From the NCBI GenBank assembly GCA_030697175.1, contig JAUYQR010000020.1, forward strand, positions 1-64,000: DNA of 64,000 bases. Direction: 5' to 3'. The translations under genes were made by a program, and so were the position numbers. Positions 13,305 through 43,290 of the stretch are shown piece by piece (position 1 is the first letter of the stretch; every line of letters starts with the position of its first letter). The notes under the pieces are model-generated. The model was not told the origin of the DNA. It saw nothing but the letters and a program-made list of their open reading frames with translations, and made no database searches. Source of the DNA: Paracoccaceae bacterium. GTDB taxonomy: Bacteria; Pseudomonadota; Alphaproteobacteria; Rhodobacterales; Rhodobacteraceae.

Positions 13305-13407
13305 GGTGTTGTGAGCGGCCCCGAGGTCGCTTACATCAACGCCTAAGTTTTCCCGCGCCGCCGACCGGAGAACGGTTTGGCGGCGCTGCGCATGAAAGAG
13401 ACCGGAC

Positions 13408-22388: not shown

Positions 22389-23096
22389 ATGAGCGGTTGG
22401 GCGCCCAAACGTTTCTGGACCGACGCGGTTGCCGAGCCCTGCGAGGGCGGCTTCGGCGTGCGCCTTGATGCCCGCCCGGTCCGCACGCCGCTGAAGGCGC
22501 CGATGGTGCTGCCCACGCTGGCGATGGCGCAGGCGATTGCCGCCGAATGGCAGGCCCAGACTGGCGCGGTCAACCCCGCCACCATGCCCTGCACCCGCGC
22601 CGCGAATTCCGCCATCGACAACGTCGCCCGGCAGTTCGACGCGGTCGTCGCCATGCTGGCCGCCTATGGCGACACCGACCTTCTGTGCTACCGCGCCACC
22701 GATCCCGACCCGCTGATTTCGCGTCAGACCGCCGCGTGGAACCCGTTGCTGGAATGGGCCGCCGATAGGTTTGGCGCGCCGCTGAACGTGACCAGCGGCG
22801 TGATCCCGGTGGCCCAGCCGACCACCAGTGTCACGATGCTGCACGCGGAAATCGCGCGCCTGAGCCCGTTCCAGCTTGCTGCGTTCCATGACCTCGTCGC
22901 GATTTCCGGCTCGCTTGTCCTTGCCCTCGCCGTGATCCACGGTCGGCTGGCCCCGAACGAGGCCTGGGCGCTCAGCCGGATCGACGAACACTGGCAGGCC
23001 GAGCTTTGGGGCGATGACGACGAGGCCAGTGTCTTGGCCGAACGCAAGCACCGCGATTTTCTCCAGGCCCACCGATTCTATGCATTGTGCCGGTAA
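22389..23096 (+). CDS. ATP12-family F1-ATPase assembly chaperone
   Basis: The 235-residue product matches the ATP12 family: KRFWTDAVAEPCEGGFGVRL at the N-terminus, the central block YGDTDLLCYRATDPDPLISR, and LNVTSGVIPVAQP. In mitochondria ATP12 holds the F1 alpha subunit during assembly; the alphaproteobacterial protein is assumed to do likewise. It follows the pseudouridine synthase by five bases, as in many Rhodobacteraceae. Confidence 0.92.
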   Translation: MSGWAPKRFWTDAVAEPCEGGFGVRLDARPVRTPLKAPMVLPTLAMAQAIAAEWQAQTGAVNPATMPCTRAANSAIDNVARQFDAVVAMLAAYGDTDLLCYRATDPDPLISRQTAAWNPLLEWAADRFGAPLNVTSGVIPVAQPTTSVTMLHAEIARLSPFQLAAFHDLVAISGSLVLALAVIHGRLAPNEAWALSRIDEHWQAELWGDDDEASVLAERKHRDFLQAHRFYALCR

Positions 23097-23219
23097 CAAT
23101 GCTGCCCAAACCTTGGGCAGAGTTCCGCCGGTCCGCGAATGGCTTCATCCAACCCTCGGAAATCCGGTCATTTTTCTGAATGATCAGCGTTTAGCTTGAC
23201 GTTTCAAAGCGCTTTAGAT

Positions 23220-23310
23220 GAAACTGCACCCACTGGGAGAGGCTCACCTCCTACAGTTTCGCCCCCGCAGCTCTGTGCGGGGCACCAAAAGTGCCGTTCA
23301 AAAAGAACGG
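23220..23310 (+). promoter_or_regulatory. Structured leader of bztABCD
   Basis: Four successive hairpins precede the bztA ribosome-binding site: A, GAAACTG/CAGTTTC (23220-23226, 23254-23260, with GAGG/CCTC inside); B, CCCCGCA/TGCGGGG (23263-23269, 23276-23282); C, GGCAC/GTGCC (23281-23285, 23291-23295); D, CCGTTC/GAACGG with an A5 loop (23294-23299, 23305-23310). B and C share two bases, as do C and D, so neighbours compete. A TTGACG at 23196 has no convincing -10. No known riboswitch was recognised. Confidence 0.5.
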
Positions 23311-23331
23311 TCAACTCAGGAAGAGGTAAGA

Positions 23332-24348
23332 ATGAAAAAATCCGTATTGCTCGGCACCTTCGCCGCCGCTGCGCTGGTTTCTGGCATGGCGTCCGCTGCG
23401 ACGCTTGACGACGTCAAGGCGCGGGGCGAGCTGATCTGCGGTTCGAACACCGGTCTGACCGGTTTCGGCGCGCCGGATGCCAATGGCGAATACCAGGGCT
23501 TCGATGCGGCGCTTTGCAAGGCGCTGGCCGCAGCCATCTTCGGCGATGCGTCGAAAGTGAAGTTTGTCCCGACCACCGGTGAAACCCGCTTCACCGCACT
23601 GGCGTCTGGCGAAGTGGACCTCCTCGTCCGCAACTCGACCTGGACCTACAGCCGTGACAACGACCTGAAGTTCGACTTCGTCGCCGTGAACTACTACGAC
23701 GGCCAGGGCTTCATGGTGAAGAAAGACCTCGGCGTTTCGTCCGCCAAGGAGCTTGATGGCGCCACCGTCTGCATCCAGACCGGCACCACGACCGAGCTCA
23801 ACCTGGCTGACTTCTTCAAGGCCAACAACATCACCTACACGCCGGTCACCGTGGCCGACGACAGCGAAGCCCAGCGCCAGTATGTCGCCGGCGCCTGCGA
23901 CGCCTACACCACCGACGCCTCCGGTCTTGCCGCTTCGCGCGCAACGCTGGCTGACGCTGAAAACCACATCATCCTGCCCGAGATCATCTCGAAAGAGCCG
24001 CTCGGCCCGGTCGTTCGCCATGGCGACAACCAGTGGGGCGATATCGTGCGCTGGGTCTACTTCTCGCTGGTGATCGCGGAAGAGAAGGGCATCACCAAGG
24101 CCAACATCGAAGAGGTGGCCTCCACCTCCACCGACCCGGAAGTGCGTCGTCTCCTCGGTCTCGAGGGCGAGATGGGTGCAATGATGGGTCTCGACAACAA
24201 CTGGGCCAAGAACGCCATTGCCGCCAACGGCAACTATGGCGAGATCTTCGAAGCCAACATCGGCACCGCCACCCCGATCGGTCTGGCACGCGGCCTGAAC
24301 GCACTGTGGACCCAAGGCGGCCTGCAGTACGCTCCGCCGGTGCGTTGA
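23332..24348 (+). CDS. bztA: Amino-acid ABC transporter, periplasmic binding protein
   Basis: The 338-residue product begins MKKSVLLGTFAAAALVSGMA and has a Sec signal peptide cleaved near ASA-ATLDD. The mature part is a type 3 solute-binding protein: DVKARGELICGSNTGLTGFG, then GETRFTALASGEVDLLVRNS. It matches BztA/AapJ, the glutamate/glutamine/aspartate/asparagine binding protein of Rhodobacter and Rhizobium. AGGAAGAGGTAAG precedes the ATG. A terminator-like hairpin follows, so it is probably made in excess over the membrane subunits. Confidence 0.93.
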   Translation: MKKSVLLGTFAAAALVSGMASAATLDDVKARGELICGSNTGLTGFGAPDANGEYQGFDAALCKALAAAIFGDASKVKFVPTTGETRFTALASGEVDLLVRNSTWTYSRDNDLKFDFVAVNYYDGQGFMVKKDLGVSSAKELDGATVCIQTGTTTELNLADFFKANNITYTPVTVADDSEAQRQYVAGACDAYTTDASGLAASRATLADAENHIILPEIISKEPLGPVVRHGDNQWGDIVRWVYFSLVIAEEKGITKANIEEVASTSTDPEVRRLLGLEGEMGAMMGLDNNWAKNAIAANGNYGEIFEANIGTATPIGLARGLNALWTQGGLQYAPPVR

Positions 24349-24361
24349 TCTGATCTGAACT

Positions 24362-24392
24362 GGGCGCGCGGATCAGTCCGCGCGCCCTTCTT
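24362..24392 (+). terminator. Partial terminator between bztA and bztB
   Basis: A perfect 11-bp GC stem (24362-24372 with 24377-24387) with loop TCAG is followed by TTCTTC. Such hairpins between the binding-protein gene and the permease genes usually lower read-through and stabilise the upstream message. Confidence 0.75.
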
Positions 24393-24480: not shown

Positions 24481-25758
24481 ATGGCGCTGGCCACCGAAAC
24501 GCCGGACACTGGCTTCCGGCTTTCCATGCTCATCTATGACACGCGGTTCCGGGCGATCACGATCCAGGTGATCGTGCTGATCCTGTTCCTGTTGTTCCTC
24601 GGCTGGTTGGTGGACAACACGATCCAGAACCTTGCCGCCAAGGACAAGGACATCAACTTCAGCTTCCTGTGGAACCGCGCTGGCTACGATATCGACCAGC
24701 AGTTGATCCCGTGGAACAACGACATGACCCACGGTCGCGCGGCGATCATCGGGCTCTTGAACACCCTTGTCGTCGCCTTCTTCGGCTGCATCTTCGCGAC
24801 CATCATCGGCGTCGTCGTCGGCGTGCTGCGCCTGTCGAAGAACTGGCTGGTGTCGCGCCTGATGACCGTCTACGTCGAGGCGTTCCGCAACGTCCCGCTG
24901 CTGCTGTGGATCATCCTCGTCTATGTGGTGTTCTCCGAAATCCGCCCCGCGCCCAAGGATTTCCGCATCACCGACGAAATGGCCGCTGCAGGCACGGCAC
25001 CGGCAGCCCACATGAACCTGTGGGATTCGGTCGCCATCACCAACCGCGGCTCCAACATCCCCGCGCCGCTGCTGGACCGCCCGCTCGGCGGGTTCGAGGT
25101 GTTTGACGTGCCGATCAACTTCTCGGTCCTTGCCACGCTTGCCGTCATCATCGCCTCCATCCTCGCCAACCGCGCCTTCCTCCGGCGCGTCCGCGCCGTT
25201 CAGGAAGACACCGGCATCCGTCCGACGACCTGGTGGAAAAGCCTTCTGATCCTGTTCGTGCCGGTCAGCCTGCTTCTTTGGGCCCTTGGCCTCCACCTCG
25301 AATACCCGGTGCTGAAGGGTTTCAACTTCCAGGGCGGCATCGCGGTCGCACATTCCTTCACCGCCCTCCTGATCGCCCTCTCGCTCTACACCGGCGCCTT
25401 CATCGCCGAGGTGGTGCGCGCCGGCATCTTGGCGATCAGCCGGGGCCAGACCGAAGCCGCCTTCGCCCTCGGCATGCGCCCGAACCGCACGATGAGCCTG
25501 ATCATCCTGCCGCAAGCGCTGCGCGTCATCATCCCGCCGCTGATCAGCCAGTTCCTCAACCTGACCAAGAACACCTCGCTTGGCATCGCGGTCAGCTACC
25601 TTGACCTGCGCGGCACGCTGGGCGGCATCACCCTCAACCAGACCGGTCGAGAACTGGAGTGCATGCTTCTGATGATGCTGATCTACCTGACCATCAGCCT
25701 GATCATCTCGTCGATCATGAACTACTTCAACGCCTCCGTGAAACTGAAGGAGCGTTGA
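24481..25758 (+). CDS. bztB: Amino-acid ABC transporter, permease 1
   Basis: The 425-residue polytopic protein is longer than ordinary His/Glu permeases, as is typical of BztB/AapQ. It carries an extended N-terminal part, and the EAA loop reads GQTEAAFALGMRPNRTMSLI. With BztC it forms the membrane channel that receives amino acids from BztA. The start ATG at 24481 follows GGCAGGGGGTACTAGA. bztC begins one base after its stop. Confidence 0.92.
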   Translation: MALATETPDTGFRLSMLIYDTRFRAITIQVIVLILFLLFLGWLVDNTIQNLAAKDKDINFSFLWNRAGYDIDQQLIPWNNDMTHGRAAIIGLLNTLVVAFFGCIFATIIGVVVGVLRLSKNWLVSRLMTVYVEAFRNVPLLLWIILVYVVFSEIRPAPKDFRITDEMAAAGTAPAAHMNLWDSVAITNRGSNIPAPLLDRPLGGFEVFDVPINFSVLATLAVIIASILANRAFLRRVRAVQEDTGIRPTTWWKSLLILFVPVSLLLWALGLHLEYPVLKGFNFQGGIAVAHSFTALLIALSLYTGAFIAEVVRAGILAISRGQTEAAFALGMRPNRTMSLIILPQALRVIIPPLISQFLNLTKNTSLGIAVSYLDLRGTLGGITLNQTGRELECMLLMMLIYLTISLIISSIMNYFNASVKLKER

Positions 25759-25759
25759 G

Positions 25760-27214
25760 ATGAGCGACACCGACAGCCAGACCGTCTTTGTCCGCCACCA
25801 GATGCTGGACCCGCAGCTTGCCCCCGTCACCGAACGCGGCGCGGTCAAGTGGATGCGCGAGAACCTGTTTTCCGGCACGTTCAACACCATCCTCACGCTG
25901 CTCGGCATCGGCGCGGTCTACTACCTCGTGTCAGCCTCGCTGCCCTGGCTGCTGAACGGGGTCTGGAACGCCAACTCGCTGTCCGAATGCCGCCAGATCA
26001 TCGCCGACAACGGTGGCACCACCGGGGCCTGCTGGGCGCTGATCAAGGCACGCTGGCATCAGTTCCTGTTCGGCTTCTATCCGCAGGATTCCTACTGGCG
26101 TCCCGTCCTCGCCTTCGGCCTCCTGTTCGTCGCCCTTGCGCCGGTGCTTTACTGGAACGACCGCAAGGGCGCGATCATGGTCGCTGTCTCCGGCGTCCTC
26201 ACCGTGCTGGCGATGATCGGCCTGTCCTCGCCCGGCACGGTCGACCTTTTCACCATCGTGCTGATGGCGGCGCTGTTCGCGCTTGCCTGGGTGATGCCCA
26301 AAAAGCTGGTCCTCGTCACGCTTGTCTACCCGTTCGTCGCCTTCTTCCTCTTGTGGGGCGGGCCGATTGCGGGGCCGATCTCTGTGCTGCTCGGGCTTGC
26401 CGCCGCCGCGTGGCTGGTGATGGCCCTCCAACCCAGAATCGGCTCGATCCTTGCCACGATCTTGGCTGTCGTCGCCGTGGCGCTGCTGTTCCTCGGCCCT
26501 TACCCGCTGACCTCGCTCCTCTCCAGCGCGTTGCAGACCGTTACCGGCTGGGGCCTTCCGGCGGTCAACTCCGACCAGTTCGGGGGCTTCCTTCTGGCCT
26601 TCGTCATCGGCATCACCTCGATCTCGTTCTCGCTGCCGATCGGTGTGATCCTGGCGCTGGGCCGCCAGTCCGACATGTTCCTGGTGAAAACCCTCTCCGT
26701 CGGGTTCATCGAATTCATCCGCGGCGTGCCGTTGATCACGCTTCTCTTCACCGCTTCGCTCCTGCTGCAATACTTCCTGCCGCCGCAGACCAACTTCGAC
26801 CTCATCCTGCGCGTCATCATCCTCGCCACGCTTTTCTCCGCAGCCTATCTGGCCGAGGTGATCCGGGGTGGTCTCGCCGCCCTGCCGCGCGGGCAGTATG
26901 AGGCGTCGGATGCACTTGGTCTGAACTACTGGCAGGCGCAGCGCCTGATCATCATGCCGCAGGCGCTCAAGATCTCGATCCCCGGCATCGTCTCCACCTT
27001 CATTGGCCTGTTCAAGGACACCACGCTGGTTTCCTTCGTGGGCCTCCTCGATCCGCTCAGGGGCGTGACCACCATCGTTCGCGCCGACATCAACTGGAAG
27101 GGCATCTACTGGGAGCCCTACATCTTCGTCGGCGTCATCTTCTTTGTCATCTGCTTCGGCATGTCGCGGTACTCGATGTACCTTGAGCGCAAGCTGAAGA
27201 CCGACCACCGGTAA
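25760..27214 (+). CDS. bztC: Amino-acid ABC transporter, permease 2
   Basis: The 484-residue polytopic protein matches BztC/AapM. A long N-terminal region contains several extra membrane segments. The permease core has the EAA loop [20 protein letters not shown] and the following [19 protein letters not shown]. It pairs with BztB. AAGGAGCGTTGAG precedes the ATG within the bztB end, so the two are coupled. Confidence 0.92.
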
Positions 27215-27224
27215 GGGACACATC

Positions 27225-27995
27225 ATGGCTGAAGCTATCGCAAGAATGCAGGTCTCGGACGAGGTCGCGATCCAGATTCAAGGGATGAACAAGTGGTACG
27301 GCACCTTCCACGTTCTGCGCGACATCAACATGACCGTGATGCGTGGCGAACGGATCGTGGTCTGCGGCCCGTCAGGCTCAGGCAAATCCACCTTGATCCG
27401 CTGCATCAACCGGCTTGAGGAACACCAGCAGGGCCACATCGTCGTCGATGGCACGGAACTGACCTCCGACATCAAGAACATCGACAAGGTCCGCTCCGAG
27501 GTCGGGATGGTGTTCCAGCATTTCAACCTCTTTCCGCACCTGACCATCCTCGAAAACCTGACGCTCGCGCCGATCTGGGTCCGCAAGGTGCCAAAGCGCG
27601 AGGCCGAGGAAACCGCGATGTATTTCCTGCAAAAGGTCAAGATCCCGGAGCAGGCGCACAAATACCCCGGCCAGCTATCGGGCGGCCAGCAGCAGCGCGT
27701 CGCCATCGCCCGCAGCTTGTGCATGAAGCCGCGCATCATGCTGTTCGACGAACCCACCTCCGCGCTCGACCCCGAGATGATCAAGGAAGTGCTCGACACC
27801 ATGATCCAGCTTGCCGAAGAAGGCATGACGATGATCTGCGTGACGCACGAGATGGGCTTTGCCCAGGCCGTGGCGAACCGGGTGATCTTCATGGATCAGG
27901 GCCAGATCGTCGAACAGAACGCCCCGAAGGAATTTTTCAACAATCCGCAGTCCGACCGGACCAAGCTGTTCCTCAGCCAGATTCTGGGTCACTGA
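27225..27995 (+). CDS. bztD: Amino-acid ABC transporter, ATP-binding protein
   Basis: The 256-residue ATPase has Walker [10 protein letters not shown], signature [15 protein letters not shown] and Walker [14 protein letters not shown] followed by the H-loop CVTHEMGFA. It energises amino-acid uptake by the BztBC channel. It follows bztC by ten bases with AAGGGACACATC as ribosome-binding site and completes the bztABCD operon. Confidence 0.95.
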
Positions 27996-43213: not shown

Positions 43214-43290
43214 GGACCCGTAGCTCAGCTGGATAGAGCATCAGACTACGAATCTGAGGGTCGGGCGTTCGAATCGCTCCGGGTCCGCCA
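43214..43290 (+). tRNA. tRNA-Arg (ACG)
   Basis: The 77-base gene folds as a normal cloverleaf: acceptor GGACCCG/CGGGTCC, D-arm TAGCTCAGCTGGATAGAG, anticodon stem TCAGA/TCTGA with loop CTACGAA (anticodon ACG), variable GGGTC, T-stem GGGCG/CGCTC, discriminator G and encoded CCA. Its 3' end is the integration site of the following island. Confidence 0.95.
43277..43290 (+). repeat. Island attachment site (attL, within tRNA-Arg)
   Basis: The 14-base sequence CTCCGGGTCCGCCA at the 3' end of the tRNA is repeated exactly at 54975-54988. The two copies bound the island, and integration has preserved the tRNA. Confidence 0.85.

Follow-up and report, generated by a model that had tools for sequence, protein, structure and literature searches.

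The 5' UTR of ompA in Escherichia coli is laid out as a hairpin at the 5' end, a further hairpin and then the ribosome-binding site. According to a review (PMC7509114), stem-loops, with ompA among the cases, stabilise mRNA, and in the puf mRNA of Rhodobacter capsulatus multiple hairpins can prevent endonucleolytic cleavage. Intergenic scans have furthermore produced candidate structured RNAs that are found throughout the Rhodobacterales, HRC-8-4 and uORFC-8-2, which were located between cco operons and in front of cysS (main text of PMC8632094). The string "bzt" is absent from the main text of that scan as well as from the accessible text of an RNase E study of R. sphaeroides (PMC6238624), and the open-access literature searched yielded no account of a bztA leader. 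Here we analyze the leader of bztA in the window, that is, the whole 64,000-nucleotide stretch of DNA under study, and "the family" denotes the window's own family, taken as Rhodobacteraceae. Transporters of the BztABCD type are responsible for uptake of glutamate, glutamine, aspartate and asparagine. The same four amino acids label the Bzt transporter in a table of PMC3413700, where R. sphaeroides bztA appears in the expression table as RSP_1747, and the bztA-D cluster of Paracoccus denitrificans is, in the accessible text of PMC5424462, among the genes responding when nitrate and ammonium cultures are compared.

In the window the bztA gene, encoding a solute-binding protein (PF00497), occupies positions 23332..24348 of the + strand, where the end is taken from the list of open reading frames, and its product has the N-terminus MKKSVLLGTFAAAALVSG. 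An ATP12-family gene (PF07542) ends at 23096, upstream of the leader, and the rest of the operon (24481..27995, + strand) consists of two permease genes and an ATPase gene, assigned from open reading frames and family matches, in an order that we take to agree with bztABCD. The name bztA is that of the original prediction, the family libraries giving only an amino-acid-binding protein of family 3; the nearest named bztA loci, among the best 80 of 593 relatives, belong to Rhodobacteraceae such as Xinfangfangia and Cypionkella. An N-terminal extension of the bztA product from the ATG at 23218 was rejected, as it begins upstream of the predicted transcription start described below. Between bztA and bztB there is a terminator-like hairpin of 11 pairs followed by TTCTTC (24362-24387, + strand), which would favour the binding protein over the permeases.

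The original prediction placed four successive hairpins in front of bztA and proposed that they form a switch of competing stems. The inverted-repeat arms are all present, namely GAAACTG (23220-23226) with CAGTTTC (23254-23260) for hairpin A, CCCCGCA (23263-23269) with TGCGGGG (23276-23282) for B, GGCAC (23281-23285) with GTGCC (23291-23295) for C, and CCGTTC (23294-23299) with GAACGG (23305-23310) for D. Equally real are the two-base overlaps between B and C (23281-23282) and between C and D (23294-23295), and hairpin D ends 7 bases before AGGAAGAGG (23318). The position of the promoter is nevertheless difficult to reconcile with hairpin A as a leader stem. Across the bztA loci the sequence CTTGAC, followed by about 18 bases and then CAAACT, CACACT, GAAACT or similar, recurs about 130 bases before the ATG, and a promoter of this CTTGAC-N18-CAAACT type could be assigned in 156 of 157 distinct bztA upstream regions, the -35/-10 spacer measuring 18 in 118 of these. 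Because the -10 scoring prefers A at position 2 and T at position 6, the presence of T at position 6 in 156/156 is partly by construction. In the window the -35 element is TTGACG (23196..23201, + strand) and the -10 element is GAAACT (23220..23225, + strand), which has a spacer of 18, aligns with the CAAACT/CACACT of relatives and departs from TATAAT; the promoter scanner did not report this promoter. From conservation and spacing we predict that transcription starts at the A at 23232 on the + strand, the seventh base past the -10 box, which agrees with the original assumption of a start not downstream of 23290. Since the 5' arm of stem A is mostly the -10 box, it should be absent from the mRNA. 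Stem A does form with a probability of 0.98 when folding begins at 23196, but from the predicted start its 3' arm pairs inside another hairpin, H1, instead. The case is a general warning against reading leader stems into inverted repeats that lie across a -10 box. The spacer (23202-23219, + strand) is itself partly conserved in the window and in many loci of relatives, approximately as GATGAATCCGCC with most bases at 40-60%, which appears to exceed the plain need of a promoter and makes a regulator site there possible.

The minimum-energy fold of 23232-23331 contains three separate hairpins, all on the + strand: H1 at the 5' end (ACTGGG...CAGT, 23232-23257), H2, which contains hairpin B (23261-23283), and H3, which contains hairpin D (23293-23311) and ends 6 nt upstream of the ribosome-binding site. 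Pair probabilities are near 1 for H3, on average 0.76 for the outer stem of H1 and 0.69-0.91 for the outer three pairs of H2. In folds that are cut at the ribosome-binding site or run to 23391, H3 gains three pairs (GTG/CTC) and in the window's leader then ends 1-2 nt before the site. Compared with shuffles, the interval of the original prediction folds mildly better (z -1.82, with 8 of 200 as good), while the leader from the predicted start reaches z -3.77 and is the third strongest among the 35 upstream regions in the window, for which gene starts were set by a simple rule. In two of these, at about 200-299 and 13308-13407 (+ strand), folding exceeds that of shuffles by even more than in the bztA leader (z -5.5 and -4.4); they may be terminators of the preceding genes.

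For comparison between species, a BztA match was present in 147 of 149 family genomes, from which 30 loci were taken, and these were combined with the best 80 of 593 relatives and with later-fetched loci, 11 of 40 later-fetched stretches being left out owing to start placement and not content. The 163 placed regions were reduced to 157 without duplicates, of which 155 gave usable leaders (92 + 42 + 21). The 92 and the later 42 (L113 onward, some of them close relatives of members of the first set) were chosen by the string AGGA[AT]GAGG, and invariance inside this string among the 134 is therefore partly a matter of selection; the 21 are the leaders without it, and include L028, L050 and L073, where the match begins at residue 24 and the start was placed some codons late. 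Exactly three local hairpins were obtained for 81 of the 92 leaders and for 41 of the 42 later ones, against 29% and 26% of shuffles. All 134 leaders had z < -1 (20 shuffles each; means -3.42 and -3.28), and by a simpler count H3 was present in 86/92 leaders against 23.6 (sd 4.0) in shuffles. The last hairpin stops 5-7 nt before the AGGA in 80/92 and 36/42 leaders, and the linkers between the three hairpins are short and A-rich in the family consensus. Among the 21 leaders without the usual site, 12 of which are named Paracoccus, three hairpins were found in 15, against 39% in shuffles. A group of Paracoccus and look-alikes (L040, L041, L043, L054, L117, L124, L158) has kept the promoter on a diverged leader and uses a different ribosome-binding site, in several of them ACAGAGAGG-like.

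The hairpins have been kept while the sequence drifted, with a mean of 0.52 bits per column over columns 1-80. In an alignment of 32 leaders, hand-chosen from the 134 for clean alignment, paired cells made up 85.9% for the 12 named pairs of H1 and H3, whose covariation score of 0.348 was reached by 0/500 shuffles (a statistic that ignores kinship) and exceeded the slid controls (at most 0.190), and double changes were seen in 8 of the 12 tested pairs. An unguided scan of the 134 leaders aligned with L-INS-i likewise placed its strongest column pair in H3 (0.408); the only other pair above the highest of 20 permuted maxima (0.289) scored 0.310 and is not a helix pair, and further pairs of H3 and H2, the latter near the top, appeared among unpaired noise in the top 30. 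H3 was not recovered by an unguided scan of the nearly ungapped, 46-nt alignment A1, and RNAalifold on a plain MAFFT alignment of the 92 leaders gave almost no structure, the latter probably because loop lengths vary. Judged by comparison of these sequences, the bztA leader is a conserved structured mRNA leader downstream of its assigned promoter, at the same gene across species. We also considered whether the conservation could act mainly at the DNA level, with the strength or pausing of the promoter set by the -35/-10 elements and first transcribed bases and the hairpins being a by-product of GC-rich sequence. Outside the ribosome-binding site, the promoter and the initial transcribed bases do indeed belong to the better conserved parts. 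In H1 and H3, however, compensating changes have preserved the pairs, and the folding energy beats dinucleotide shuffles in 134/134 leaders, neither of which selection on the DNA predicts for hairpins far from the start; we hold the explanation to be improbable.

The same comparison bears on the proposal that the leader is a metabolite riboswitch or translational switch, responding to glutamate, glutamine or aspartate through mutually exclusive stems. The location upstream of an amino-acid transporter gene is what one would expect of such a switch, the two-base stem overlaps are real in this one sequence, and the GGCAC/GTGCC stem (hairpin C, 23281..23295, + strand) has a pair probability of about 0.77 if the transcript is cut at 23298-23300, so that in this leader it could be a passing intermediate. 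In the full leader, however, the probability of stem C is at most 0.04, and an equivalent stem joining H2 and H3 was found in only 5/122 leaders, this one included; of the conservation and covariation expected in related leaders, that of H1 and H3 was thus borne out and that of stem C was not. With the first stem overlapping the -10 box in addition, a switch of competing stems is not supported. A conserved unpaired core was not seen either: apart from the columns next to the ribosome-binding site (C 99%, T 75%), identity in loops and linkers is nowhere above 75%, and in the 32-row alignment the columns of at least 90% upstream of the site fall in stem arms, plus the adjoining T. A terminator or attenuator in the leader was rejected on the grounds that a TTT run follows the last hairpin in 0/134 leaders, and pairing of the ribosome-binding site with the leader is below the level of shuffles (see below), which likewise speaks against such a switch. 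No Rfam family reaches its gathering score in the leader, in line with the original statement that no known riboswitch class was recognised; lax limits brought up two matches below threshold, one covering the leader on the opposite strand (E 3.1) and one within bztA (E 5). Taken together, a metabolite switch is in our opinion an improbable explanation. Elsewhere in the window Rfam identified an L2-Alphaproteobacteria ribosomal protein leader above the gathering score (2382-2444, + strand) and a tRNA gene (43214-43287, + strand). A leader peptide started by ATG was also rejected, since an ATG between +1 and the ribosome-binding site is present in 77/134 leaders and in none of the other 57.

A covariance model, R1, was built from 32 hand-chosen leaders and used for searching 26 genomes, the window's own included, in which matches below E 1e-4 occurred only at bztA. 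In the own genome the bztA leader was matched with E 2.2e-18 and the next match had 0.37. Matches below 1e-4 were found in 11 of 16 family genomes, each abutting the BztA match, and 10 of the 11 matched loci are outside model R1, although close relatives of them may be inside; the remaining 5 family genomes and 10 genomes of other families had no match below 1e-4 (best 0.0029). When upstream regions from other alphaproteobacterial families were compared, 28 of 29 loci could be placed, and the single family member among them has both the ribosome-binding site and the three hairpins. In the 27 upstream regions from other families the site AGGAAGAGGT was found in none, and three hairpins were found in 7, using fixed 100-nt stretches and starts set by a simple rule. 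To judge from the genomes searched, the leader appears to have arisen in this family and at this gene.

The most unusual part of the leader is the conservation of its ribosome-binding site. In 134 of 157 bztA regions the sequence AGGAAGAGGT (23318..23327, + strand, in the window) is found exactly and no further than 25 nt from the ATG, and in longer loci, like these regions not selected for the site, it is in 106 of 123 bztA sites, compared with 7/126 bztB sites and 6/125 sites of the upstream gene for the commonest 10-mer there; the bztC site reaches 49/77, but the 22 nt in question may include the end of bztB. This degree of conservation, far beyond that of nearby sites, can be taken as a sign that a small RNA or an RNA-binding protein recognises H3 together with CAGGAAGAGGU and sets the translation of bztA down or up with nitrogen or stress. 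The last hairpin lies at a nearly fixed distance from the site, this genome has a single instance of the pattern in front of an ATG, and repressing small RNAs usually act at the ribosome-binding site, all of which favours a regulated target. CsrA is the most familiar protein to bind AGGA sites of this kind, but its family PF02599 was matched in 0/61 family genomes (3 of 14 control genomes matched), making control by CsrA unlikely. A small RNA carrying the exact complement was also sought: AGGAAGAGGT has 15 further exact copies in the genome, and reading their flanks by eye revealed no evident small-RNA gene. The loop sequences of the leader are not strongly conserved. The small-RNA or protein part of the original prediction is in our view a serious rival to the explanation that we prefer below, possible rather than probable. 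A broader version, in which a protein or small RNA would read the three hairpins at their fixed positions together with CAGGAAGAGGU and set amino-acid uptake in Rhodobacteraceae, would make the leader a new family-wide class of cis-regulatory RNA without a metabolite aptamer, and this we consider rather unlikely. The Rhodobacteraceae are a major marine group, and if the leader is regulated it would add a new point at which their amino-acid uptake is controlled post-transcriptionally.

The explanation that we prefer, and to which we give an even chance, is that the bztA leader may be a constitutive 5'-UTR device, which would operate like the ompA leader and not as an on/off switch. The bztABCD mRNA would start at about A23232 with a 5' UTR of 100 nt, in which three independent hairpins are joined by short linkers. 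H1, beginning at the first nucleotide, would tie up the 5' end of the mRNA and be followed by H2, H3, the near-invariant ribosome-binding site and the ATG. In this way the hairpins would shield the 5' end and leader of the binding-protein mRNA from decay that depends on the 5' end, and prevent base pairing between the GC-rich leader and the ribosome-binding site, presumably to the benefit of translation and of a binding protein that is made in high abundance.

Several of the folding results are in favour of this constitutive device. The first four nucleotides are more often paired than in shuffles (unpaired 0.40 and 0.42, against 0.65, with +1 set by rule), the pairing between the ribosome-binding site and the leader is low (0.26 and 0.25, against 0.44 and 0.42 in shuffles), and it is the position of the hairpins and not the sequence of their loops that is conserved. 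Site-leader pairing was below that of a leader's own shuffles in 78/92 and 37/42 leaders, together 115/134, an effect that partly follows automatically from stable hairpins. Other results weaken the proposal. The site is unpaired overall at 0.40 and 0.39 against 0.36 in shuffles and is thus hardly freer, because it pairs more with the sequence downstream (0.15 and 0.17, shuffles 0.09 and 0.10). The first four nucleotides are still unpaired to about 40% in the prediction, and when folding is started directly behind the -10 box, the position of the first paired base varies between 1 and 11, with one case at 21, which leaves a blunt 5' stem unproved. Also counting against a constitutive device are the lower frequency of three-hairpin leaders among those without the usual site (15/21), the 5 of 16 family genomes without a match below 1e-4, and the modelled extension of H3 to 1-2 nt before the site in some folds of the window's leader. 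In addition, a stabiliser model does not fully account for the near-invariant ribosome-binding site. The original prediction is right in a structured bztA leader and unsupported in its switch; what stands in front of bztA is a three-hairpin leader, conserved across the family, absent from Rfam and followed by a conserved ribosome-binding site. With its hairpins kept and its letters drifting, it constitutes a clean natural experiment on what the mRNA of a transporter needs in its 5' UTR.

Among known systems, riboswitches for glutamine and other amino acids would likewise be situated upstream of nitrogen or amino-acid genes, but the bztA leader differs from them in having neither an Rfam match at threshold nor a conserved unpaired core. 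The puf mRNA offers a likeness from the same bacterial family, also with multiple hairpins, except that the puf hairpins lie within a polycistronic photosynthesis mRNA and not in a 5' leader as at bztA. In layout the bztA leader can be compared with the ompA 5' UTR, both being structured 5' UTRs of envelope protein genes; bztA has three hairpins, its stabilising role would be the counterpart of that ascribed to ompA, and the likeness drawn here is one of layout.
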